Shown in pieces: positions 4,092 to 52,459 of a stretch of DNA of 64,000 nucleotides (positions are counted from its first letter, which is position 1; every line of letters starts with the position of its first letter). Made by a program: the position numbers and the translations under genes. The stretch comes from Desulfobacteraceae bacterium (GTDB lineage: Bacteria > Desulfobacterota > Desulfobacteria > Desulfobacterales > Desulfosarcinaceae): the NCBI GenBank assembly GCA_024230435.1, contig JAAERL010001107.1, forward strand, positions 1 to 64,000. Direction: 5' to 3'. The notes beneath the pieces are model-generated. The model was not told where the DNA came from. It saw nothing but the letters and a program-made list of their open reading frames with translations, and did no database searches.

Positions 4092-5750
4092 CTAAGCAAA
4101 AAAATCGACTTCACCGAATTGCTGACCGACCTTTGGTAAGGTCTGAGCCGGGTGCAGCGATGCGGATGTTTCTTGTTCTGCGTCCGGTTCCACACGATCC
4201 GGTTTGCCGTTCCGGTTGTTTTTAGCCCGACGCAAATGCTGTTGTTGTTGCTGTTTTAAAGAATTGTTGTCGTTGCCCACAAAAACATCAAACTTATCGA
4301 TTTCTAATCCATGCTGACTCAGCTCGGTTTTCAGTATTTGAAGATTTTGCTCAATCATCTCTTTTACAACGTGTGAATCCGCGGTTACCTTCACCATGAC
4401 CTGCTGTTTGGCTGCAGTGACCTGAATATTCAGATCCCCTAAAAATTCGGGTTTCAATTTTATCAGCATCTGAGGCTGCAGCCCGTGTGTTTTCAAAGTC
4501 ATACGCTTGACGACCTGGCGCATGACATCGGATTGGAGATCTTTTGTAAAAGGTTCCGGTTGTGGCGTTTGCTCAGCAGGTGCGGAAGCCGGTTGCCGAT
4601 GCGTGCCTGAATCGCTGATGCGGCTTTGAATCATCTGATGAATAGTATCACGGGCAAACTCTTGATTTTGTATATTTTTTCCACCTTGTACATGTTGCTC
4701 GTTTTCAGTGAACTCAACGGGCTTGTGAAACTGCTCGTTGTCCGCTTTCAATTTTTTAACGTTTTTGGACATGAGGGATTGATCCGCCAATGCGTCTTTT
4801 CCCGTTTGAGCCTGAACCGGTCGTTGTCTAAAATTGGCGGTCTCAAGTGCCGTGTTTTTCTTATCCGTTTGATCCGATTGCTGTTTTGTATTCTTGTTTG
4901 CCGTTTTGTCCGCATCAACTAAAAGTGAAACGTGCTGACTAACGTTTTCATTCCCGGCTTTGCCCAAAAGCGGCGCCTGGCTGTTGAGCGCCCCGTTTTG
5001 CCCTTGCCCGGCAACCTTTGCAGATGGATTCTCAAGTACCGCTGCAGGTTTTGCGTGCGCCGGATCTTTTGACTGGAGCATTTGTGTTTTTTCACTGTTT
5101 GCAGTTTCAACCAAAGTGTTTTTCATCATCTGCGCATTAATTACATCTGTATCGGCTGCCTTTTGCTCAAAAGGCCCCGGACCGGTTTGCTGATGCTGAT
5201 CCGGCCGGACCGGATTGATTTCAAGGCCAGCGGGATTTACAGCAGCTGTGTCCGGCAACCGGATTTGCGGCTGAATCAGATCATTAGCGCCTGGATCTTG
5301 ATGCGTTGCTCGATTTGAAACAGTTTGAAGTAAAAGGTTTAACATTTCTTGCGGATTGGAACCGGAGTTCGCCGAATCTACGGTCCAAGATTGCAGCCCA
5401 AAATCCTGGCGCTCTGGAATAATCGATTGGAGCTGTTTTAATTGCTCTGGAATAATCGATTGGAGCTGTTTCAATTGCTCGGGAATAATCGATTGAAGCT
5501 GTTTCAGGCGCTCGGGAATAATCGATTGAAGCTGTTTCAGGCGCTCGGGAAGTTGATCGGCGGGTACAGACAAAAGACTGCCCATAATGTCCATAAATTC
5601 CGTATCAGCAATGCCGGAATCCGGGTCTTGCGAACTGGAGGTTCTGCCTGCGATCTGCTGAACTGCTTTGCCTGCGATCTGCTGAACTGCTTTGCCGGCG
5701 GCTTTTGTCTCCGGACCGGCGGTCTGAAAAACTTTCAAAACGGCATCCAT
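4092..5750 (-). CDS. fliK: Flagellar hook-length control protein FliK with tandem repeats
   Basis: The 552-residue protein has the layout of FliK: a long low-complexity N-terminal ruler region and a compact C-terminal hook-length domain (about residues 410-490). The C-terminal domain contains LIKLKPEFLGDLNIQVTAA and KVTADSHVVKEMIEQNL, the Flg_hook core that switches export from hook to filament substrates. The N-terminal part carries two in-frame repeats: an 8-residue unit (Q-Q-I-A-G-K-A-V type) at about residues 20-35, and four copies of an 11-residue unit (LKQLQSIIPE plus one) at about 70-113. The C-terminal tail is Gln/Asn rich. It starts 2 bases after fliJ. The C-terminal fold identifies it; the N terminus is too divergent to compare. 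Confidence 0.9.
   Translation of the reverse strand: MDAVLKVFQTAGPETKAAGKAVQQIAGKAVQQIAGRTSSSQDPDSGIADTEFMDIMGSLLSVPADQLPERLKQLQSIIPERLKQLQSIIPEQLKQLQSIIPEQLKQLQSIIPERQDFGLQSWTVDSANSGSNPQEMLNLLLQTVSNRATHQDPGANDLIQPQIRLPDTAAVNPAGLEINPVRPDQHQQTGPGPFEQKAADTDVINAQMMKNTLVETANSEKTQMLQSKDPAHAKPAAVLENPSAKVAGQGQNGALNSQAPLLGKAGNENVSQHVSLLVDADKTANKNTKQQSDQTDKKNTALETANFRQRPVQAQTGKDALADQSLMSKNVKKLKADNEQFHKPVEFTENEQHVQGGKNIQNQEFARDTIHQMIQSRISDSGTHRQPASAPAEQTPQPEPFTKDLQSDVMRQVVKRMTLKTHGLQPQMLIKLKPEFLGDLNIQVTAAKQQVMVKVTADSHVVKEMIEQNLQILKTELSQHGLEIDKFDVFVGNDNNSLKQQQQQHLRRAKNNRNGKPDRVEPDAEQETSASLHPAQTLPKVGQQFGEVDFFA
5412..5543 (-). repeat. Four 33-bp tandem repeats inside fliK
   Basis: Four head-to-tail 33-base units lie at 5412-5444, 5445-5477, 5478-5510 and 5511-5543, with a partial fifth. 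Units 3 and 4 are identical and units 1 and 2 differ by one base. Each encodes 11 residues, so copy-number change would keep the frame and lengthen or shorten the FliK ruler. Confidence 0.95.
5646..5693 (-). repeat. Two 24-bp tandem repeats near the start of fliK
   Basis: Two identical 24-base units (5646-5669 and 5670-5693) duplicate eight residues in the FliK N terminus. This is independent of the 33-bp array and also frame-preserving. Confidence 0.9.
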
Positions 5751-40922: not shown

Positions 40923-42617
40923 ATGGAATGCAACCTTGAATACGAGGATGCGGCAAAGCGTTATCTATCCGGTGACTTGACCGGTTCACAACGCATCTGC
41001 GAACGCATTCTTGAGAAAAATCCCGGTCATTTGCGTGCATTGCATTTGCAGGCTATGGCGTACTATGGGCAAAGCGATTACCCAAAAGCCAGGGATTTAT
41101 TGCATAAACTGATATCGTGTAACAATTCAACGGCGGACTACCATAACGACCTGGGATTGGTTTTGATGGCGCAAAAACACTATGCTCAGGCTTTGGAGGC
41201 ATTTGAGCAAGCCTTATCCCTGTCGCCGGGGGTGGCCCCGTTTCACATCAACGCAGGTTTAGCCTATACGGGGCTCGGTGATGACAAAGCAGCGCGAACA
41301 TCGTTTGAAAAAGCCATTACCTGTGATCCCGGCTATGCCAAAGGGCATTTTTTCCTGGCCAAATTGCACGAAACTAAAAAAGAATTTGAATCTGCAATTT
41401 TTCATTATCATCAGGCGGTGCGCTCAAAGCCCGATTTTCTTGGCGCACTGAATAATCTTGCAACCTGCCTGATGAAAACCGGAGACTTTGGACAAGCCCA
41501 AAGGCTTTTAAAGCAAGCGCTTGCCCTGCACCCTGATTCTGCTGAATCAGCATGTAATTTGGGCAACCTGTTACGGCTAACCTTTCGTTTTCAGGACGCA
41601 GTCAGGATGTATGAGCGGGCGATTGCGCTGAAACCTGATTATTCAGAGGCGCATTTTAACCTGGCGCTTGTTTTGCTGCTCCTGGGCAGGTATGCCCGCG
41701 GCTGGAGCGAGTACGAATGGCGTCTTTGTAAGTATCCCGACGGCAGCGGCTATCCTAATCGCCATGGTTTGCCTTTATGGCGAGGTGAAGACATCAGCGG
41801 GAAAACACTTTTGGTTTATGATGAGCAGGGTTTTGGCGACACATTCATGCTCGCCCGTTACCTTACCATGGCCAAACAATCAGGAGCCCGTATTATTTTT
41901 GAAATCCGGCCCGGCTTGCATCAACTGTTTTCCGGTCAAAACCTGGCCGATGAACTGGTAATCCGCGAAAAACCGGGCAAGCCTCCTAAAAATTGCGACT
42001 ATTGTACACCCTTGCCCAGCTTGCCTGGGATAATGGGAACTTTGCCGGAAACCATTCCCAATACAATTCCCTACCTGGCTGCTGATCCAGAAAAAATAAA
42101 ACACTGGCATATGAGAATAAAAAGCAAGGGCCTCAAGATTGGCATAGTCTGGTCCGGATCGGATGCCGATCCTGCCCGGCGCTGTCCTCTTTCAGAGTTT
42201 GAATCCCTCTCACGCCATAACTGCCTGACTTTTTACGGCTTGCAAAAACATGATCCTGACAAACAGGCCAGGGCATATGAATGGCTGACAAACTTTGGGC
42301 CTGAGCTGAATGATTTTTCCGACACCGCAGCCGTTTTAGCCAATATGGATCTTTTAATTTCCATCGATACCTCCGTAGCTCATCTGGCAGGCGCCATGGG
42401 ACGCCCGGCCTGGGTCCTTTTACCCTATATTCCGGACTGGCGCTGGATGCCCAAAGGAGAAAAATCACCCTGGTATCCGGGCATACGTCTTTTTCGCCAG
42501 GATGAACACCGCAGCTGGCGCTCCCCCATAGAACGCATTGCACGGGAGCTGGTTGCCCAGATCGAAAAATTCAAACACATTGAGAGTCTGCGAACCAAGG
42601 TGCAACATGAGGGATAA
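40923..42617 (+). CDS. TPR protein with GT9-like glycosyltransferase domain (copy 2)
   Basis: The 564-residue protein has about seven TPR units (residues 5-270) and a heptosyltransferase-like C-terminal domain (about 290-545) with YDEQGFGDTFMLARYLTMAK, LKIGIVWSGSDADPARRCPL and ISIDTSVAHLAGAMGRPAW. The domain is clearly paralogous to the C-terminal halves of the genes at 18959 and 45759. It is first in a plus-strand run of five overlapping or closely spaced genes (40923-47460), overlapping the next start by 11 bases. Confidence 0.8.
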   Translation: MECNLEYEDAAKRYLSGDLTGSQRICERILEKNPGHLRALHLQAMAYYGQSDYPKARDLLHKLISCNNSTADYHNDLGLVLMAQKHYAQALEAFEQALSLSPGVAPFHINAGLAYTGLGDDKAARTSFEKAITCDPGYAKGHFFLAKLHETKKEFESAIFHYHQAVRSKPDFLGALNNLATCLMKTGDFGQAQRLLKQALALHPDSAESACNLGNLLRLTFRFQDAVRMYERAIALKPDYSEAHFNLALVLLLLGRYARGWSEYEWRLCKYPDGSGYPNRHGLPLWRGEDISGKTLLVYDEQGFGDTFMLARYLTMAKQSGARIIFEIRPGLHQLFSGQNLADELVIREKPGKPPKNCDYCTPLPSLPGIMGTLPETIPNTIPYLAADPEKIKHWHMRIKSKGLKIGIVWSGSDADPARRCPLSEFESLSRHNCLTFYGLQKHDPDKQARAYEWLTNFGPELNDFSDTAAVLANMDLLISIDTSVAHLAGAMGRPAWVLLPYIPDWRWMPKGEKSPWYPGIRLFRQDEHRSWRSPIERIARELVAQIEKFKHIESLRTKVQHEG

Positions 42618-43329
42618 AACTATCATTTGCTACTGTGCTGGAGGATTAGGCAATCGTTTAAAACCTATGGCATCATGCTGGGCGATTTCCCGGCTTACCG
42701 GAAGGCGTTTAAAAATTTTATGGCGCAAAGATGACTTGCGGCGCCAGGTGGGATTTGCACTGGTTGGCAAACTGGTCTCCTGGTCCATGAACCTGGATCA
42801 TCATCTAATCAGCACAAGCATCGATCCGAATTTGTATTATTCGCCCGAAAAAAAAGAACGCTCCATCGTCTATATCCAACGCAAGGCTGCATGTATTAAA
42901 CCTTTGCGCCGGCTGCTGGGCGCTCACAACAAAGCTTATCTGCAACAACTCCAATGGCAACCGCTTTTTAATCTGCCCCAGGCAGTTTATGCTGAAAATA
43001 TCCGTAACGCATCAGTATTTTTAAATCTTTCCCCGGCAGAAGGCTTTCCCTCAAGCTGCGTTGAAGCCATGCAATGCGAAACTCTTGTTGCCGGTTTTGA
43101 CGCTGTGGGCGGGCAACAAATTCTGCAAAACGGCAATAACAGTTTGCTGGCCCCCAATGCGGACTATCCCGCCCTGGCTTATGCATTGTCACCTGTATTG
43201 TCAGATTTGCTGACCGGAAGTTTTGACACTTGGCAACCCCTATTGGAAAACGCTAAAAACTTAACCGCTTCATATACTCTTGAAGCTGAAGCCGAATCTT
43301 TGATTCGGTTCTGGCAAAGTGTTCTATGA
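42607..43329 (+). CDS. Chimeric or shortened glycosyltransferase
   Basis: The 240-residue product starts at the ATG at 42607. Its first 40 residues (ICYCAGGLGNRLKPMASCWA) have the GG-LGNRL loop of fucosyltransferase-like enzymes. From about residue 75 it resembles the C-terminal half of a GT4 enzyme, with ASVFLNLSPAEGFPSSCVEA and MQCETLVAGFDAVGGQQIL. A GT4 enzyme needs an N-terminal Rossmann domain, which is missing, and the fucosyltransferase part is too short to be complete. The gene therefore looks like an in-frame fusion after deletion. It remains in frame and overlaps both neighbours, so it may still be expressed. Confidence 0.6.
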   Translation: MRDKTIICYCAGGLGNRLKPMASCWAISRLTGRRLKILWRKDDLRRQVGFALVGKLVSWSMNLDHHLISTSIDPNLYYSPEKKERSIVYIQRKAACIKPLRRLLGAHNKAYLQQLQWQPLFNLPQAVYAENIRNASVFLNLSPAEGFPSSCVEAMQCETLVAGFDAVGGQQILQNGNNSLLAPNADYPALAYALSPVLSDLLTGSFDTWQPLLENAKNLTASYTLEAEAESLIRFWQSVL

Positions 43330-45743
43330 CCGAAAAAAAAATGCATACCTTTGTTCTTGAACACAAAACAGGATCAGGCAACCTTGAATCCAAAAAGCAC
43401 GGTGAAACCGGCTCCAACAGCGAATCGGAGATGCTTTACAAGCTGGCCCTATTAGCTGTCGAACGTGACGAAACCTGCTACGCCATCGGCCTGATAAAGC
43501 GAGCCCTTGTGATTTGCCCCGGCAACGCGCTATATCTGCGCGCCCTGGCAGAGTTGCTCATCATGGAATCGTGTTACGCAGAAGCGTTATCGGCTTTAGA
43601 AAATGCCCTTGCCATTGAACCGGATGTTGAGCAAATCTATTTCCTCATGGGTATTGCCACGGACCATTGCGGCGATATCACCAAATCCGTTGAATCTTAT
43701 CAAAAGGCCGTTGAATTGGACCCCGATTGGCATGAGGCCAGATACAACCTGGCAATAGCCCGCCATCGCGCCGGTGACATAGCGGGGGCAATCGTGGATC
43801 TGAATCATATTTTAACTCGTAAACCGGATTGGGCGGCCGCCTGGTTAAACCTGGGAAGAGTTTATTCCGACATAGGTGATCATCCTCAGGCAATGCAATG
43901 CTGGCAAAAAGCGCTCTTGCTGGAACCGGATAATTACAAGGCCCTTTTTAATATGGCTACTTGCCTGTACGCCCAGGCAAAATTCGATGAAGCCATAGGA
44001 AAATTTAACTCTACCCTGAAACGCGAACCACAAATGGCCAAAGCCTGGTATGGCAAGGGGAAATGTTATTATGACCTGAAAAAAACGGATAAAGCCGCAC
44101 AATGTTACCACATGGCCATAACTATTGAACCGGATTATGCCATGGCCTGGTTTGCTTTAGCCGCCACATTTCAGATCCCTGAACAACTCGAGGACGTGGT
44201 GGCCTGTTATCGTAAAGTCATTGACCTGGAGCCGAAAAATGACGCGGCCCAACTGAACTTTGCCATGGCTTTACGCAAGCAGGGGCAGATACAAGGAGCC
44301 ATGATCCATTGCCGCAAGGCATTGGCCATCACGCCCCGGTTCACCAAGGCTCTGATTTTTCTGTTTCAGTTGGCCCAGCATGCCTGCGACTGGCGATTGA
44401 TTCAAGCAATGACTGCCCAATTGGATGAACTGCTTGAGGATCAACTGGCAAAAAAAATCACACCCGATGAATCGCCCATGTTGAATCTGCGCCGTAAAAG
44501 TGATCCGCGCTGGAACCTTGAAGTGGCCAGGGCCTGGAGCCGGGCAGCCGAAAAATCTGTAAAACAAACTCCGGCGCCTTTGATGAAACCGGCTCGCAAA
44601 GGGGCTTGCGCCAATCTTTTGAGAATCGGGTATATTTCAAGTGACTTAAAAGAGCATGCAGTGGCTCACCCCCTGCGGGGGCTTTTCAGATGCCATGACC
44701 GCACACGCTTTGAGATCACCGCCTTTGCATGCAATGCCCCGGATCGCAGCCATTACCAAAAGGAAATGAAAAAAGTAAGCGATCATTTTTTTCATATCCA
44801 CCACCTGACGAATACCAAAGCCGCCGGTTTTATTTGCGAACACGGCATCGATATTCTTGTGGATCTGACGGGCCATTCCCAAGGCCGGCGCATGGAAATT
44901 CTTGCCAGGCGCCCGGCCCCCATACTGGTTTCCTACCTTGGCTTTTTGGGAACCAGCGGTGCTGATTTTATCGACTACCTGATTACTGACGCAATTGTAA
45001 CACCGCCTGATCACGCTGATTTTTACACCGAAAAACTGGTTTACATGCCCCAGTGCTACCAGGTCAATGACAATACGATGCCCTTGCCCAAGCCCATTTT
45101 CCGGCGGGGCGATTTTGGTTTGGATGAGAACTCGATTGTATTTTGCAGCTTTAATCAACCTTATAAGTTGGATCAAGCCACATTTGAATGCTGGCTGGCG
45201 ATTCTATCGAAAACCAGCGAAAGCGTTTTGTGGCTGCTGTATCAAAACGCCTCGGCCCGCGACAATATGCGAAAGGCTGCGCAAAATGCCGGTATCGATC
45301 CTGACCGCTTGAAATTCGGCGATCCCCTGCGAATCGACAAACATATTTGCCGGTTGACATTGGCAGATATCGCGCTGGACCCTTTTGCATACAATGGAGG
45401 TGCTACTACTTCCAATGCCCTCTGGGCTGGTATTCCCGTCGTAACAAAAACAGGAGGCCATTTCGTCTCCCGCATGTCAGCCAGCGCTTTAAATGCTGTA
45501 GGTTTAAATTCGCTGATTGCCCAAAATGCCGAAGACTATCAGCACCTGGCAGTGGAATTGGCAGCCAATGCATCAAAGCGGACTGAAATTCGTCGGCATC
45601 TTTGCCAAAACCGCCACACTTTACCGCTTTTTGATACATCATTATTTACCGTGCAATTGGAAAAAGCGTTCACATACATGTATCATAGGCATGCCAATCA
45701 GTTACCTCCGGTTTCATTTAAAGTTGAACCGGATAAAGTATAG
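43326..45743 (+). CDS. TPR / GT41 O-GlcNAc-transferase-like protein
   Basis: The 805-residue protein has roughly ten TPR repeats (about 30-360) and a GT41 catalytic region (about 430-790). Family blocks are well kept: LLRIGYISSDLKEHAVAHPL with the active-site-region His, RPAPILVSYLGFLGTSGADF, and DPFAYNGGATTSNALWAGIP. GT41 enzymes transfer N-acetylglucosamine or other sugars to Ser/Thr of proteins in the cytoplasm. It overlaps the preceding gene by 4 bases (ATGA). It is a closer match to canonical OGT than the 1076-residue protein at 23116. Acceptor unknown; flagellin is a candidate. Confidence 0.85.
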   Translation: MTEKKMHTFVLEHKTGSGNLESKKHGETGSNSESEMLYKLALLAVERDETCYAIGLIKRALVICPGNALYLRALAELLIMESCYAEALSALENALAIEPDVEQIYFLMGIATDHCGDITKSVESYQKAVELDPDWHEARYNLAIARHRAGDIAGAIVDLNHILTRKPDWAAAWLNLGRVYSDIGDHPQAMQCWQKALLLEPDNYKALFNMATCLYAQAKFDEAIGKFNSTLKREPQMAKAWYGKGKCYYDLKKTDKAAQCYHMAITIEPDYAMAWFALAATFQIPEQLEDVVACYRKVIDLEPKNDAAQLNFAMALRKQGQIQGAMIHCRKALAITPRFTKALIFLFQLAQHACDWRLIQAMTAQLDELLEDQLAKKITPDESPMLNLRRKSDPRWNLEVARAWSRAAEKSVKQTPAPLMKPARKGACANLLRIGYISSDLKEHAVAHPLRGLFRCHDRTRFEITAFACNAPDRSHYQKEMKKVSDHFFHIHHLTNTKAAGFICEHGIDILVDLTGHSQGRRMEILARRPAPILVSYLGFLGTSGADFIDYLITDAIVTPPDHADFYTEKLVYMPQCYQVNDNTMPLPKPIFRRGDFGLDENSIVFCSFNQPYKLDQATFECWLAILSKTSESVLWLLYQNASARDNMRKAAQNAGIDPDRLKFGDPLRIDKHICRLTLADIALDPFAYNGGATTSNALWAGIPVVTKTGGHFVSRMSASALNAVGLNSLIAQNAEDYQHLAVELAANASKRTEIRRHLCQNRHTLPLFDTSLFTVQLEKAFTYMYHRHANQLPPVSFKVEPDKV

Positions 45744-45758
45744 GAATGGAGATCTTCA

Positions 45759-47270
45759 ATGGATTCGGTTATTGATCTGGCAGCGCAAGCCCAAGAGTAT
45801 ATTGAATCGGGAAATCTGGATGATGCTGAACGCATTTACCGCAAAATGCTGACATCCGGACCCGCCAATGCGCACATACATCATGTGCTCGGACTCATTT
45901 ACTACGAACAAAAACGGTATGAACAAGCACGCCGCCAGGTCTGCAGAGCCATAGAGATAAATCCTGAGCAAGGCGTTTATTGGCGCAGCCTTGGCGATAT
46001 TATCCAAGCCTTAGGAAATGTGTCTTCAGCCATTGAAAATTATGAAAAATCCCTTCTGCTTGCGCCCCATGACCCGGATACCTTGTTGAATTTAGGCAAT
46101 GCCCTGCATAAAACGGGTAACAGCCGGCGGGCCATAGAACACTTCCGGCACGTTTTCAATCAACATCCCGATCATTTCCAGGCAGCCAACAATATTGGAA
46201 AAATATATTATGACCAGGGCGATATCAAAGAATCGCTAACTTGGTACGGCAAAGCCCTGACCATCTGTCCCGATTATGCCGAAGCGCACTTTAACCGGGC
46301 GGCCGCATTGTTAGCCTCCGGAGATTATGCTTGCGGCTGGCCAGCGTATGAATGGCGTTTTAAACGCACCGAAGCCGCCCGGGTTTACCCTCACCGGCTC
46401 AACGCAGCGCGCTGGGACGGCGCAAGTTTCAAAGACAAACGTTTATTGGTGCATTGCGAACAGGGCATGGGCGATGTGCTCCAGTTTTGCCGGTATTTGC
46501 CCATGGTAAAAACGATGGGCGGGCATCTGATCGCTGAAGTTCAACGCCCATTACAATCGTTGATAGAACGCATGGAAGCAATTGACGAAGTTATTGCTTA
46601 CAGTCAAAGCCAGACGCCTCAAATGCACTACCGGTATTATTATCCTCTGTTAAGTCTGCCCCTGATCTTTAAAACCACACTGGACACCATCCCCGATACG
46701 GTTCCCTATTTGTTTGCCTCGCCCGAAAAAATAGCTCGCTGGAAAACGATTCTAAACAGCAAAGGCCTGCGAGCCGGCCTGGTTTGGTCAGGAAGCGATG
46801 TGGAACCCAACCGCTCATGCAGCTTGTCTGACCTGGCGCCGTTGTGGCAAATAGAGCATGTTCAGCTTTACAGCCTGCAGACAGGACCTGTCGCCGATGA
46901 AATAGAGCCTCTGGAAAAACAGCAGAAAATCATCAGCCTGGGTTCCCATTTTAAAGATTTTGATGATACCGCTGCTGCTATCGCAAACCTTGACCTGGTG
47001 ATTTCCATCGACACCGCGGCGGCCCATCTTGCCGGGGCCATGGGAAAACCCGTATGGATACTGCTGCCAAAAATACCTGATTGGCGCTGGATGCAAGACG
47101 GTTCAAAAAGTCCATGGTATCCAACGGCGCGTTTGTTTCGCCAAAAGCAAACCGGGCAGTGGCCGTGTGTAATCCGGGAGGCTGCCCAGGCATTGCGCAG
47201 CCAAACCGCTATCGAAATCAATACTGAGTTCAAACCAATCTGCTGCCGTGGATCAAAATCAGCTCCTTAA
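45759..47270 (+). CDS. TPR protein with GT9-like glycosyltransferase domain (copy 3)
   Basis: The 503-residue protein has five or so TPR units (residues 5-190) and a GT9-like C-terminal domain (about 215-480) with VHCEQGMGDVLQFCRYLPMV, RAGLVWSGSDVEPNRSCSL and VISIDTAAAHLAGAMGKPVW. GGAG lies 10 bases before the ATG. It is the third paralogue of this architecture in the window, with fewer TPR units than the others. It starts 15 bases after the GT41 gene and overlaps a truncated TPR gene at its end. Confidence 0.8.
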   Translation: MDSVIDLAAQAQEYIESGNLDDAERIYRKMLTSGPANAHIHHVLGLIYYEQKRYEQARRQVCRAIEINPEQGVYWRSLGDIIQALGNVSSAIENYEKSLLLAPHDPDTLLNLGNALHKTGNSRRAIEHFRHVFNQHPDHFQAANNIGKIYYDQGDIKESLTWYGKALTICPDYAEAHFNRAAALLASGDYACGWPAYEWRFKRTEAARVYPHRLNAARWDGASFKDKRLLVHCEQGMGDVLQFCRYLPMVKTMGGHLIAEVQRPLQSLIERMEAIDEVIAYSQSQTPQMHYRYYYPLLSLPLIFKTTLDTIPDTVPYLFASPEKIARWKTILNSKGLRAGLVWSGSDVEPNRSCSLSDLAPLWQIEHVQLYSLQTGPVADEIEPLEKQQKIISLGSHFKDFDDTAAAIANLDLVISIDTAAAHLAGAMGKPVWILLPKIPDWRWMQDGSKSPWYPTARLFRQKQTGQWPCVIREAAQALRSQTAIEINTEFKPICCRGSKSAP

Positions 47271-47464: not shown

Positions 47465-47989
47465 CTAAAGCTTTTTTCTTTCTAAAAAGAAAAATAACAG
47501 TATTGAAGCGACAGCCAGCAGCGCAATGACAATCCAATGACTGATGCCAAGCACCTGGGGCAAGGTAATTTTTCCATATTCTCCGATATTGATGATATGT
47601 GCTTTTACAATGGGATAAACCGTTGCGAAAAGCGCTGCGCCGCATAGCATGCCAAAAATTCCCCAAAGACCATCAATTCTTCCTTCTCCCAATGCACCTG
47701 CCGCCGTACCCGGGCAATAGCCAAGCAAACCCCAGCCAATACCGAACAGTGTCCCGCCAAAGAGTTGAGCCCCTGTAGAGGCCGGTTTTACGCTTAATTT
47801 TATCAGGCCAATGTCTTTGAAAAGATAAATGCCGATGGATGCCACAACAATTGCACTCAACATGAATTTGATAATGGTCATATCTATCAATCTCAAAGCG
47901 CCGATCTGCTTATCGTATCGGAGTATCTGCGCTTTTTGCAACAGCACTCCAAAGACGATTCCCGTTACAAGCCCGTATAGTAAGCTCAT
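47465..47989 (-). CDS. YeeE/YedE-family membrane transporter, C-terminal-type half
   Basis: The 174-residue membrane protein has about four or five hydrophobic segments and the signature FGIGWGLLGYCPGTAAGALG (about residues 80-100) with a conserved Cys. YeeE/YedE proteins import sulfur compounds (thiosulfate in YeeE) and are related to selenium-linked YedE. It lies 3 bases downstream of the partner gene at 47993-48520, which encodes the other half with the GG-C-x-SGHG motif, so the two probably form one transporter. It ends convergently against the truncated TPR gene. Confidence 0.85.
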   Translation of the reverse strand: MSLLYGLVTGIVFGVLLQKAQILRYDKQIGALRLIDMTIIKFMLSAIVVASIGIYLFKDIGLIKLSVKPASTGAQLFGGTLFGIGWGLLGYCPGTAAGALGEGRIDGLWGIFGMLCGAALFATVYPIVKAHIINIGEYGKITLPQVLGISHWIVIALLAVASILLFFFLERKKL

Positions 47990-47992
47990 ATG

Positions 47993-48520
47993 CTATTTCC
48001 TTTGCATGCTGTAAATTATATTAGCACAAATAAGCCCGCCGATAAAAAAGGCAATCAGTGCAAGAAAACCACTGATAGAAAGCTGAGCAAGACCGCTCAG
48101 TCCATGACCGCTGGGTCACCCGCCTGCCATCCTGGCGCCAAACAAAGCAATGGCTCCGCCCAAGAATGCTACCACTGCTCTTTTTACCGGATTGGCCCCG
48201 AACCTTTTCTTCCACATATCGGGAACCGTCTGAATCTTAAAATCACCTGATAGCGTTGATGCTAAAAATCCACCTATAAAAATGCCGGTGACAAAGATCA
48301 ACTGCCAGTTGGGCAATGATGATGGCCCGTATTTGCCTTTTTTGGTGGTAAAATACTCAATAGCCGATGTGTCGATACCGACAGCTTGTTCGATTACCGA
48401 TGCACTGCGGACAAAGGTCGTCGACACACCAAAAAATTTTCCGCTGATCAATACCGACAAGACTAGCAAAACACCTGCAAGGCTGCCGGCAAAGTAGGGA
48501 TTCCAAGGCTTTTTAAGCAT
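47993..48520 (-). CDS. YeeE/YedE-family membrane protein, probable selenoprotein
   Basis: Reading stops at a TGA at 48116-48118 after 134 residues, but the frame continues for 40 more codons of perfect family sequence to a TAG at 47993. Before the TGA it reads IALFGARMAGG; after it PSGHGLSGLAQLSISGF and FFIGGLICANIIYSMQRK. The family motif is GG-C-T-SGHG, so the TGA occupies exactly the conserved Cys. A hairpin fitting a bacterial SECIS follows. I therefore call one 175-residue selenoprotein with Sec at residue 135. It has about four hydrophobic segments and a GGAGG-rich leader. The alternative is a nonsense mutation in a dying gene, which would not explain the hairpin. selA, selB, selC and selD are not in this window. 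Confidence 0.8.
48083..48100 (-). promoter_or_regulatory. SECIS-like hairpin after the in-frame UGA
   Basis: On the minus strand CTGAGCGGTCTTGCTCAG forms a perfect 6-bp stem with the apical loop GGUCUU. Its first base is 16 bases past the UGA and its loop begins 21 bases past it, within the range known for bacterial SECIS elements. The E. coli fdhF SECIS likewise depends on GGUCU in its loop for SelB binding. Confidence 0.8.
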
Positions 48521-49099: not shown

Positions 49100-50458
49100 T
49101 TAATTGTGTTCTGTCAAAATTGATGCATAGTGCTCAAAACCGCTCTGATGGAACCTTTGGGCCAAATCCTCAATTGCCAGGGAAATGGCCTTTGACGCCG
49201 ATGACTTTTCCAGAATGTCAAACAACGCCGCACTTTGGCTTTGATTGCCAAGAATTTTATATCCGGCCGCCAACATGAAAAACGCCGCCAAATATCCTTC
49301 ATGCTTGATCACCAACTTGTGCAAAATTTCGCAGGCTTCATCAATCCGGTCCAGCAACAGCAGGCTGAGTGCAAAATTATATCGGGCCTCTTTTGAATCA
49401 GGGGCTAATTCTATGGCTTTGCCGGCGTATTCAAGGGCATTTTCATACCGGCCCGTCTGCCAGTAGGCTCCTGCTAAGTTGATATAGGTTTCGGGATAAT
49501 CGGGATTGAGCTCTCTGAGCCTTTGCCAAAGCTCAAGCGCCTGGGGCCAATATTCGAGTTCACCGGCCTGAACTGCCAATTCGCGCACAGCCTCCAAATC
49601 ATCGCCCAATTGGTCAAGTTTTTCATATCCCAATTTAAAATAGTGCATCGCCTTTTGCCGGTTTTTGACTTCATTCAAATGCCCGTAATGATGAACAGGG
49701 ATCGGGCAGTGTTCAATTTTCATCTTCGCATGACGAATACTGGGCTCAAGCCGCTCATGAACCGGATAACTGAAATAAATGTCATTGTTCCGGGAAAACA
49801 GCCTTACTTTCCGGCTCGGGAACCAACCCAGCCCGGCTTCATGTTGAGGATAGCTGTTATCGTTGGCCTGCCAGTTCAGAACATTGGCCAGGTTGGTATA
49901 ATTGCGGGTTTCAATGGAAAAGCAAATCGGGTAATCATAGCGTCTGCTGATCAGATACCGCAGCTTTTTAAAATCAGCGGGTGCAATGACTTCATCGGCG
50001 TCAAGGATCAAGATCCAATCTCCGCGGGCTTTTTCAATGGAAAAATTCCTGGCTGTGCTAAAGTTCTCGTCCCAGCCGTAATAAAACGTCCTGGCTCCGA
50101 AAATTGCAGCCACATCCGCCGTACGGTCCATTGATCCGGTATCGATTACGATGATTTCGTCCACTAATTTCTTGACCGCGTGCAGGCAGGCGCCCAAAAA
50201 GCCGATTTCGTTTTTGACAATCATGCATAGCGATATGGCCGGAGCACCCCCTTTTAAACCGTCAAGGCTCAGGGGACCGATTTTCGAACGAATATTTAAA
50301 GCAGCGTCAATGAGCTGATCATCGGGCTGACATGCCGCCGCCATTTCTTCAATGTCCGCCATGGCTGCGACATAATTTTTTTTCTGCAAGTTCAAAGCGA
50401 TATTCAGACTGCGCATCCGCTGATTCCGGTGCAGCAGGTTTTCCCGGGTATCTTTCAT
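49100..50458 (-). CDS. GT2 glycosyltransferase with C-terminal TPR repeats
   Basis: The 452-residue protein has a GT2 domain at about 74-200 (ISLCMIVKNEIGFLGACLHA, DEIIVIDTGSMDRTADVA, ILILDADEVI with the DxD metal site), then a linker and TPR units at about 290-410. The domain order is the reverse of the other TPR-glycosyltransferases in the window. It is cytoplasmic. It begins 15 bases downstream of the TPR gene at 50474 and is followed by a strong terminator, so the two form an operon. The acceptor is unknown. Confidence 0.85.
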   Translation of the reverse strand: MKDTRENLLHRNQRMRSLNIALNLQKKNYVAAMADIEEMAAACQPDDQLIDAALNIRSKIGPLSLDGLKGGAPAISLCMIVKNEIGFLGACLHAVKKLVDEIIVIDTGSMDRTADVAAIFGARTFYYGWDENFSTARNFSIEKARGDWILILDADEVIAPADFKKLRYLISRRYDYPICFSIETRNYTNLANVLNWQANDNSYPQHEAGLGWFPSRKVRLFSRNNDIYFSYPVHERLEPSIRHAKMKIEHCPIPVHHYGHLNEVKNRQKAMHYFKLGYEKLDQLGDDLEAVRELAVQAGELEYWPQALELWQRLRELNPDYPETYINLAGAYWQTGRYENALEYAGKAIELAPDSKEARYNFALSLLLLDRIDEACEILHKLVIKHEGYLAAFFMLAAGYKILGNQSQSAALFDILEKSSASKAISLAIEDLAQRFHQSGFEHYASILTEHN

Positions 50459-50473
50459 TTTGTCCTACACTCT

Positions 50474-51985
50474 TTATTTTGCATTAGCCTGCCGTTTGTT
50501 TTCTTTTTCTACAATAGTTGCCGAATTTTCCAGGCCCTCCAAGGCATGTCTCGCATCATTATTCCAGGGCTCAATTTCTAAAGCGAGCTGGTAAAAATAG
50601 CGTGCTTCATCAAAATTCTTTAAATTCAAACAAATCGAACCGGTCGCCAGCAAACAATCCACGTCCTTGGGATTGCTCTTAAGAACTTTAACATAAAGTT
50701 TCATGGCGTCTTCGGTCTTTTGCAACTCCATCAGATAAAAATCCGCCAGGTTTTTCAAAAAAGTGATGTTGTCCGGAGATAGACGAACCGCCTGTTCGTA
50801 ATAGGTTTGAGCCGACGCTTTGTCACCCCGATCGTAACAAATAACCCCCAGATCATTGTAAGCCAGCGCATGGTTAGGATCTTGGGTGATCAATTGCCGC
50901 AAAAAGTTCATCGCTGCTTCGCTATCGCCGTTTTCGGATTTTGAAAGAGCACGCTCGTAAAGCTCCTGGCCGGTTAGGGACACATGATGTTCGGATAAAG
51001 ATTTTTCATCAAGCTGTTCCAAAAGCTGCCTGGCTTGCAGGTTCGTCATATCAATTTCAACCACGCGGTTTAAAAAAAAGCGTGCATCGGTTTCGTGGCC
51101 AAGCGCCATACAGATATGCCCGATGGCCAACATAGATTCGGTATCTGCCGGGCTGATGGTTAAAACCTGAACATAGAGCTCCATGGCTTTTTTCAGTTCA
51201 GCTTTTTCAATACAATAAAAGTCAGCCAAATTTTTCAGGAAAACTAAGTTATCCGGTTCTAATTGAACCGCTGTTTGATAATGTTTCAGGCAGTTATCCT
51301 TATCTCCGGTTTCAAAATAAAGTATTGCCAAATCGTTGTGAACCGCTGGCCGTTCAGGTGTTTTGGACAACAGACGATTGCAGGTTTCAATGGCTGCGGT
51401 GGTATTGCCTGCTTGTATTTGCTCCCGGGCGGTTTGCCAAAGATCATCCGGCGCCAGATTCGTCTGTTGATGCGCTGCCTGATGTTGAGCCGGTTGCCGG
51501 AAAACAGGTTGCTGTTGAGTGCCGGATTGTTTTTTTATCCTGTCCAGCAGCACAATTGCTTCTTTTTCAGAAGGATCAAGTTGAATAACCTTTTCATAAT
51601 ATTCACAGGCTTTATCAAATTCGCGTTGCACAACGAACAGGTGAGCCATTATCATCAGCGTCTGTGTATCACCGGGACGCAGCTCTATAACTTTCAGATA
51701 TCGATCCAGCGCGGCAGAGGCATCATTGCCGATGACATGATAAAAATCGCCTAGAGCTTTCTGATAATCCGGATTTTCCGGCTCAAGCCCGGCTGCTTGT
51801 TCGAAATGGTTCAAAACACCATCCCGGTTGCCTGATTCATGACCCAGCAAAGCTTTTTGGTAGTGCCAGAAAGCCACTTTCGGATGTTCGGCAAGCAGCT
51901 TATCCAACATCCAGTGGGCGGCTTGGGTATGCCCGTGATCGAGCAGACATGAAATGGCGTTATTCATTTGATCTGCGAAATTCAT
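50474..51985 (-). CDS. TPR protein, no catalytic domain
   Basis: The 503-residue protein starts at the ATG at 51985, which has GGAGG 8 bases upstream; the longer frame from 52051 is less likely. It consists of about twelve TPR-like helix pairs in three internal repeats: the blocks NRDGVLNHFEQAAGLEPENP, KDNCLKHYQTAVQLEPDNLV and KASAQTYYEQAVRLSPDNIT occur about 150 residues apart. No enzyme domain, signal peptide or membrane segment is present. It probably acts as a scaffold for the glycosyltransferase encoded immediately downstream. Confidence 0.75.
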   Translation of the reverse strand: MNFADQMNNAISCLLDHGHTQAAHWMLDKLLAEHPKVAFWHYQKALLGHESGNRDGVLNHFEQAAGLEPENPDYQKALGDFYHVIGNDASAALDRYLKVIELRPGDTQTLMIMAHLFVVQREFDKACEYYEKVIQLDPSEKEAIVLLDRIKKQSGTQQQPVFRQPAQHQAAHQQTNLAPDDLWQTAREQIQAGNTTAAIETCNRLLSKTPERPAVHNDLAILYFETGDKDNCLKHYQTAVQLEPDNLVFLKNLADFYCIEKAELKKAMELYVQVLTISPADTESMLAIGHICMALGHETDARFFLNRVVEIDMTNLQARQLLEQLDEKSLSEHHVSLTGQELYERALSKSENGDSEAAMNFLRQLITQDPNHALAYNDLGVICYDRGDKASAQTYYEQAVRLSPDNITFLKNLADFYLMELQKTEDAMKLYVKVLKSNPKDVDCLLATGSICLNLKNFDEARYFYQLALEIEPWNNDARHALEGLENSATIVEKENKRQANAK

Positions 51986-52459
51986 TTTACTGCCTCCTTG
52001 AGCAGGTATTGGATCGCTTTGGACGATAGTAGAGTGTAAATGCGATTCCATAGGATTAGTGCTCTGAATAATGTTGCACCCTGCCAGTTTTGCCCGACAG
52101 GCCGCGAGTTAATAAATCAGCGGTTAGTTCTATAATTTCATAGCTTCATGAAAAATATAGACGTCATAAAAATGACGATCATCTTAATTGACTTTGGCAA
52201 TATATTTATCACCTGTATATCCGCAAATGGCATGCGTGCGGTTCTGATCTGCAGCCTACTGCGCCGTAAGACTATGCCGGCACTGGCGCTTTGATCTGAT
52301 ACGTACCTGCTAATTCCGGATAAAATTCTTCGTGCAAATCTTATACCGCCATTATCTAAACGATAAAAAGATTCATTTTGGCAGGACTCTTGGCAAATGA
52401 TTCTTGGAATATAAAGTGTGACTAAGGAAGGGAATTTTTAAGGAAGGTTGCTAAAAAGC
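51986..52459. other. Intergenic region without recognised gene
   Basis: About 470 bases with no convincing gene. A possible leader of the TPR gene lies next to 51985. A GTGTGACT sequence near 52418 resembles the edge of the REP-like repeat but without its palindrome. Confidence 0.35.

Follow-up and report, generated by a model that had tools for sequence, protein, structure and literature searches.

A split transporter gene pair with an in-frame UGA

Within the window (the whole stretch of 64,000 nucleotides that was analysed), which comes from a sulfate-reducer-like bacterium, two short adjacent genes on the minus strand encode the halves of a transporter of the YeeE/YedE family (Table 1). 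The first of them, PmpA-like, starts with an ATG at 48520, immediately 3′ of a GGAGG-rich stretch resembling a ribosome-binding site, and runs for 175 codons to a TAG at codon 176 (47995-47993). The only in-frame stop before that TAG is a TGA at 48118-48116, which constitutes codon 135 in the motif AGG-U-PSGHG and leaves 40 codons to be read. The initial annotation, in which the strand was not given, had proposed that this UGA replaces the Cys of a GG-C-x-SGHG signature, and that 40 further codons continue the family to its normal end. Indeed, codon 135 falls on the invariant family Cys, the frame is intact afterwards, and the 40 codons counted up to the TAG carry the mark of purifying selection. 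The Cys-containing partner half that had been placed at 47465 is also present, at 47989-47465 of the minus strand, with its Cys in GYCPGT.

Table 1. Features of the PmpA/PmpB-like locus, with their positions in the window
Feature	Position	Strand	Basis
PmpA-like C-terminal half of YeeE/YedE (PF04143) transporter	47993..48520	-	Pfam Sulf_transp match, E 5e-27, profile positions 173-309; single TGA, then TAG
UGA codon predicted to be read as selenocysteine, codon 135	48116..48118	-	Alignment to 8j4c/6leo; only TGA or Cys in 134 distinct relatives
Ribosome-binding-site-like GGAGGGGGGAGGAT stretch 5′ of start codon	48521..48534	-	Direct sequence reading
bSECIS-like hairpin CUGAGC-GGUCUU-GCUCAG	48083..48100	-	Complete in 31/33 TGA, 0/101 Cys copies; compensatory changes; -8.4 kcal/mol
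PmpB-like N-terminal half, 174 aa, conserved Cys92 in GYCPGT	47465..47989	-	PF04143 profile positions 18-149, E 3.6e-15; Cys92 = TsuA Cys91 by 6leo alignment

Family membership and likely substrate

The two halves score 95.7 and 56.7 bits against PF04143, both above the 27-bit cut-off, and as adjacent short genes matching separate parts of the profile they show the PmpAB type of split. The pore Cys of the YeeE/YedE family is represented by Cys92 in the PmpB half and, with selenocysteine (Sec) predicted in place of Cys, by residue 135 in the PmpA half. Beyond these two, no PF04143 place was found in the genome, and therefore no ordinary Cys copy accompanies them. Among relatives, a PmpB-type partner follows the PmpA half in 32 of the 32 readable Sec loci, always retaining the Cys of GYCP(G/A)T. 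Scores against the TsuA models stayed far under the cut-offs, with 47.8 bits for NF052577 (cut-off 400) and 38.5 bits for NF041049 (cut-off 645), each half corresponding to only a part of the model.

When aligned to TsuA of Spirochaeta thermophila (6leo, 8j4c, 8k1r), residue 135 matches Cys293 and Cys92 of the partner matches Cys91, two residues that are indispensable in TsuA and have counterparts in PmpA/PmpB (PMC11582611; PMC11073785). The suggestion that the Sec would lie in the substrate path or in a sensing site is thus supported for the substrate path by the alignment with Cys293, while nothing was found in favor of a sensor. The likeness to TsuA resides in these pore positions; unlike the present two genes, TsuA is a single fused protein that has Cys22 as a third Cys and TsuB as a TusA-like partner, whereas here Cys is missing from the PmpB half where Cys22 would be (QKAQILRY) and the pair has no TsuB gene next to it. 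The PmpA and PmpB proteins of Serratia sp. ATCC 39006 are likewise adjacent short C- and N-terminal halves with one conserved Cys position each (PMC11582611), but the PmpA Cys corresponds to the predicted Sec here, and the halves have about 130 residues there and about 175 here. An AlphaFold model of the PmpA half alone, built with 24 homologues, was of low confidence (pLDDT 61.6, pTM 0.39), perhaps because this half needs its partner.

Thiosulfate or sulfane sulfur is the likely substrate of such a PmpAB-like pair. It is also conceivable, though unlikely, that the transporter carries a selenium compound instead of, or besides, a sulfur compound, as has been suggested for the YedE of selenium operons; this alternative concerns the substrate and not the Sec itself. 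The top-scoring NCBIfam model is in fact selen_YedE_FdhT, and elsewhere a role in selenium transport has been predicted for, or linked to, YedE-like proteins (PMC5322559), among them that of M. maripaludis, as cited in PMC11582611. Nevertheless, the score for the selenium-operon YedE (NF033796, TIGR04112) is 57.7 bits, far below the cut-off of 350, and no selenium-metabolism neighbours were recognised in the window. Moreover, neither selD nor yedF nor any other selenium-trafficking gene was recognised beside the pair in the window and the neighbourhoods that were read, and the recognisable neighbours in relatives are peroxiredoxin and rhodanese genes.

Codon 135 in relatives and selection past the UGA

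Relatives were drawn from public genomes and from genomes of the same family, order and class, and 134 distinct copies were readable at codon 135; a search of plasmids for relatives gave two distant matches only. The codon is TGA in 33 copies, spanning many genera, and TGC or TGT in the other 101, every readable copy thus having either TGA or Cys, the pattern of an in-frame UGA with Cys in homologues that characterizes bacterial selenoproteins.

Over the 40 codons past the UGA, comparison of the window gene with four close Sec relatives yielded a dN of 0.11-0.17 and a dS of 0.69-0.86; since dN is well below dS, those codons are translated. In addition, dS is lower there than upstream of the UGA, which fits an RNA element overlapping the coding sequence. 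Other loss-of-function changes, which the initial annotation had named as a sign against its own reading, are absent from the window copy.

These data bear directly on the possibility that the UGA is a true stop, giving a truncated PmpA of 134 residues whose remainder would be untranslated or would serve only for coupling to PmpB. Standard-code ORF calling does terminate the gene at 48116, but the 40 codons that follow show conservation at the protein level and include the invariant SGHG segment, and TAA or TAG never appears at codon 135 of the homologues, so truncation is highly improbable.

A hairpin linked to the UGA codon

Immediately downstream of the UGA, a perfect 6-bp stem with a GGUCUU loop had been noted as spaced like SECIS elements of the E. 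coli type. The stem was confirmed: it begins 15 nt past the UGA, and when the segment is folded alone it reaches -8.4 kcal/mol. With a loop of 6 nt, 6 bp and 21 nt from UGA to loop, it lies within the limits published for bSECIS elements, i.e., a loop of 3-9 nt with G in its first two positions, a stem of 4-16 bp, a distance of 16-37 nt from the UGA and a minimum free energy of at most -7.5 kcal/mol (PMC13188914). A complete stem would arise in just 2.1% of the synonymous codon sets for the peptide LSGLAQ. An Rfam scan of the window returned no matches, hairpin included.

Across the copies, two hairpin designs occupy the same position 3′ of the TGA: type A, (Y)UGAGC-GGUCUK-GCUCA(R), to which that of the window belongs, and type B, (Y)UGAGCG-GUU-CGCU-bulge-CA(R). 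A complete stem of either type is present in 31 of the 33 TGA copies (the exceptions by strict count being L143 and L153) and in none of the 101 Cys copies; for the 71 sequences in the tree described below, the corresponding counts are 31/33 and 0/38. The combination of TGA at codon 135 with a complete hairpin is far beyond chance. Furthermore, the stem covaries: its outer pairs are contributed by a Leu and a Gln codon, which are CTG with CAG in 16 TGA copies, TTG with CAA in 14, TTG with CAG in one and CTG with CAA in none, the pair switching from CG to UA in step, which is compensatory change. In an alignment of 17 sequences the outer cells pair in 100% of cases, compared with 92.6% in shuffles, and none of 500 shuffles reaches this value, a figure that kinship can inflate. 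The Cys copy L026 has the identical peptide LSGLAQ with a broken stem, and copies that reverted to Cys, such as L159, are without the complete hairpin. The phylogenetic independence of the association is limited, as a test of independent pairs found only two that are well supported, too few for significance alone.

A pseudogene or a sequencing error, that is, a nonsense mutation or wrong base hitting the Cys codon in an otherwise ordinary Cys transporter, could be invoked in a draft genome of 1238 contigs, all the more as two other TGA copies contain extra stops. As a general explanation it is refuted because 33 distinct copies share the TGA codon, and with purifying selection past the UGA and a hairpin tied to the TGA also against it, its probability is close to nil.

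Selenocysteine machinery and the decoding of the UGA

The host encodes the whole set that a bacterial selenoprotein calls for: all the sel genes named for checking in the initial annotation were found, namely selA, selB, a tRNA-Sec with a TCA anticodon, and selD, the latter as two different genes (L020 and L021). Both carry an in-frame TGA of their own within the N-terminal region, where SelD is known to have Sec or Cys, and because of this the genome appears to use Sec in other genes as well.

Near-cognate read-through of UGA exists in general, but decoding of codon 135 as Trp, as Cys or by such read-through, rather than as Sec, is scarcely credible given the complete Sec machinery, the absence of Trp at this codon in any homologue and a SelB-type hairpin maintained only where the codon is TGA. 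All three rivals (a pseudogene, a true stop and decoding as a residue other than Sec) were accordingly rejected on the sharing of the TGA, purifying selection, the Sec machinery and the TGA-linked hairpin. Insertion of Sec at the UGA of a YeeE/YedE half-transporter is, on this comparative evidence, very probable. The structure of the gene, the conservation of the codon, the hairpin and the covariation of its stem, the presence of Sec machinery and the match to Cys293 and Cys91 are established computationally.

There is precedent for such a protein. A “YeeE/YedE thiosulfate transporter family, GUxSG” is already catalogued as a selenoprotein family in reviews (PMC13188914); compared by its listing, it shares with the present gene the Pfam family, the motif (here G-U-P-S-G) and Sec at the family Cys. 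Sec forms of the family were thus known before, and this locus is a further member, to which the placement in a split half, the covariation of the hairpin and the adjacent Sec peroxiredoxin of close relatives are added here. No functional study of Sec-containing YeeE/YedE turned up in the literature that was searched, and the main texts of the two primary papers cited by the reviews do not name the family.

Evolutionary history of the Sec codon

In a tree of 71 proteins, all 33 Sec copies fall inside one group of 46 rows, and four changes of label are needed, most simply one gain of Sec and three reversions to Cys. The apparent reversions concern L159, the long-branched L035 and a group of 11 rows. 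How many changes there were, and in which direction, is provisional, because this is a quick tree with a support of 86 for the 46-row group, and starred branches force only two of the changes.

Two Sec copies contain further stops, L027 an extra in-frame TGA at codon 100 and L160 a TAG and a TAA at codons 48 and 88; these are probably draft errors or decaying genes.

A possible mechanism and its significance

The two genes would constitute the PmpA- and PmpB-type halves of a small membrane importer of the YeeE/YedE family, whose cargo is probably thiosulfate, sulfane sulfur or another reduced sulfur species. Within PmpA, the outermost chalcogen residue of the pore, at the position of TsuA Cys293, would be Sec, put in at the UGA by SelA, SelB, SelD and tRNA-Sec under the guidance of the hairpin in the coding sequence. 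We infer a PmpA-PmpB heterodimer in which Sec acts as the first relay residue: the selenol, more acidic and more polarizable, would be the first to meet the sulfur compound as it arrives on the outer side, this being the presumed benefit of Sec, and the compound might then be passed from Sec135 to Cys92 of PmpB and on to the cytoplasm.

The selenoproteins catalogued so far are mostly regarded as redox enzymes. Sec lying in the conduction path of a membrane transporter, one whose homologue has been solved, would offer a testable case of the contribution of selenium to transport, and the natural Sec and Cys versions of this clade, together with the three apparent reversions, lend themselves to comparing transport rate and substrate range directly. 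From a practical perspective, annotation under the standard code will shorten such genes or label them as pseudogenes.

Gene neighbourhoods in the window and in Sec relatives

In the window the pair stands alone between long TPR-repeat and glycosyltransferase-like genes (42538-47270 and 49100-52051); no sulfur-metabolism neighbours were seen there, and the flanking genes have no obvious link to sulfur. Among the closest Sec relatives, four loci (L106, L107, L141 and L143) have a peroxiredoxin gene about 0.9-1.3 kb past the Sec codon, itself with a TGA at the peroxidatic active-site Cys (FTFVUATE); in L158 the peroxiredoxin lies on the opposite side. This neighbour is absent from the window itself, and a search of its genome, run without a positive control, found no relative of it. 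In L036 the transporter pair is directly followed by a rhodanese gene (about 5097-5558) with a TGA at the active-site Cys (IPYUAVGGRS), and in G028 (L136) a rhodanese-rubrerythrin fusion with Cys is encoded near the pair.

By association, the peroxiredoxin and rhodanese neighbours suggest the handling of reactive sulfur or peroxide. A bolder and rather doubtful idea is that the Sec form in close relatives and the adjacent Sec peroxiredoxin, joined in one locus by the Sec rhodanese, make up a selenium-based module in which Sec would be more than a better Cys, moving sulfane sulfur across the membrane and detoxifying reactive sulfur or oxygen species, with chalcogen exchange taking place at the transport pore.

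Two genomes, G017 and G028 (L110, L135, L136 and L137), each hold the PmpA half in a Sec as well as a Cys version, which possibly serve selenium-rich and selenium-poor conditions.
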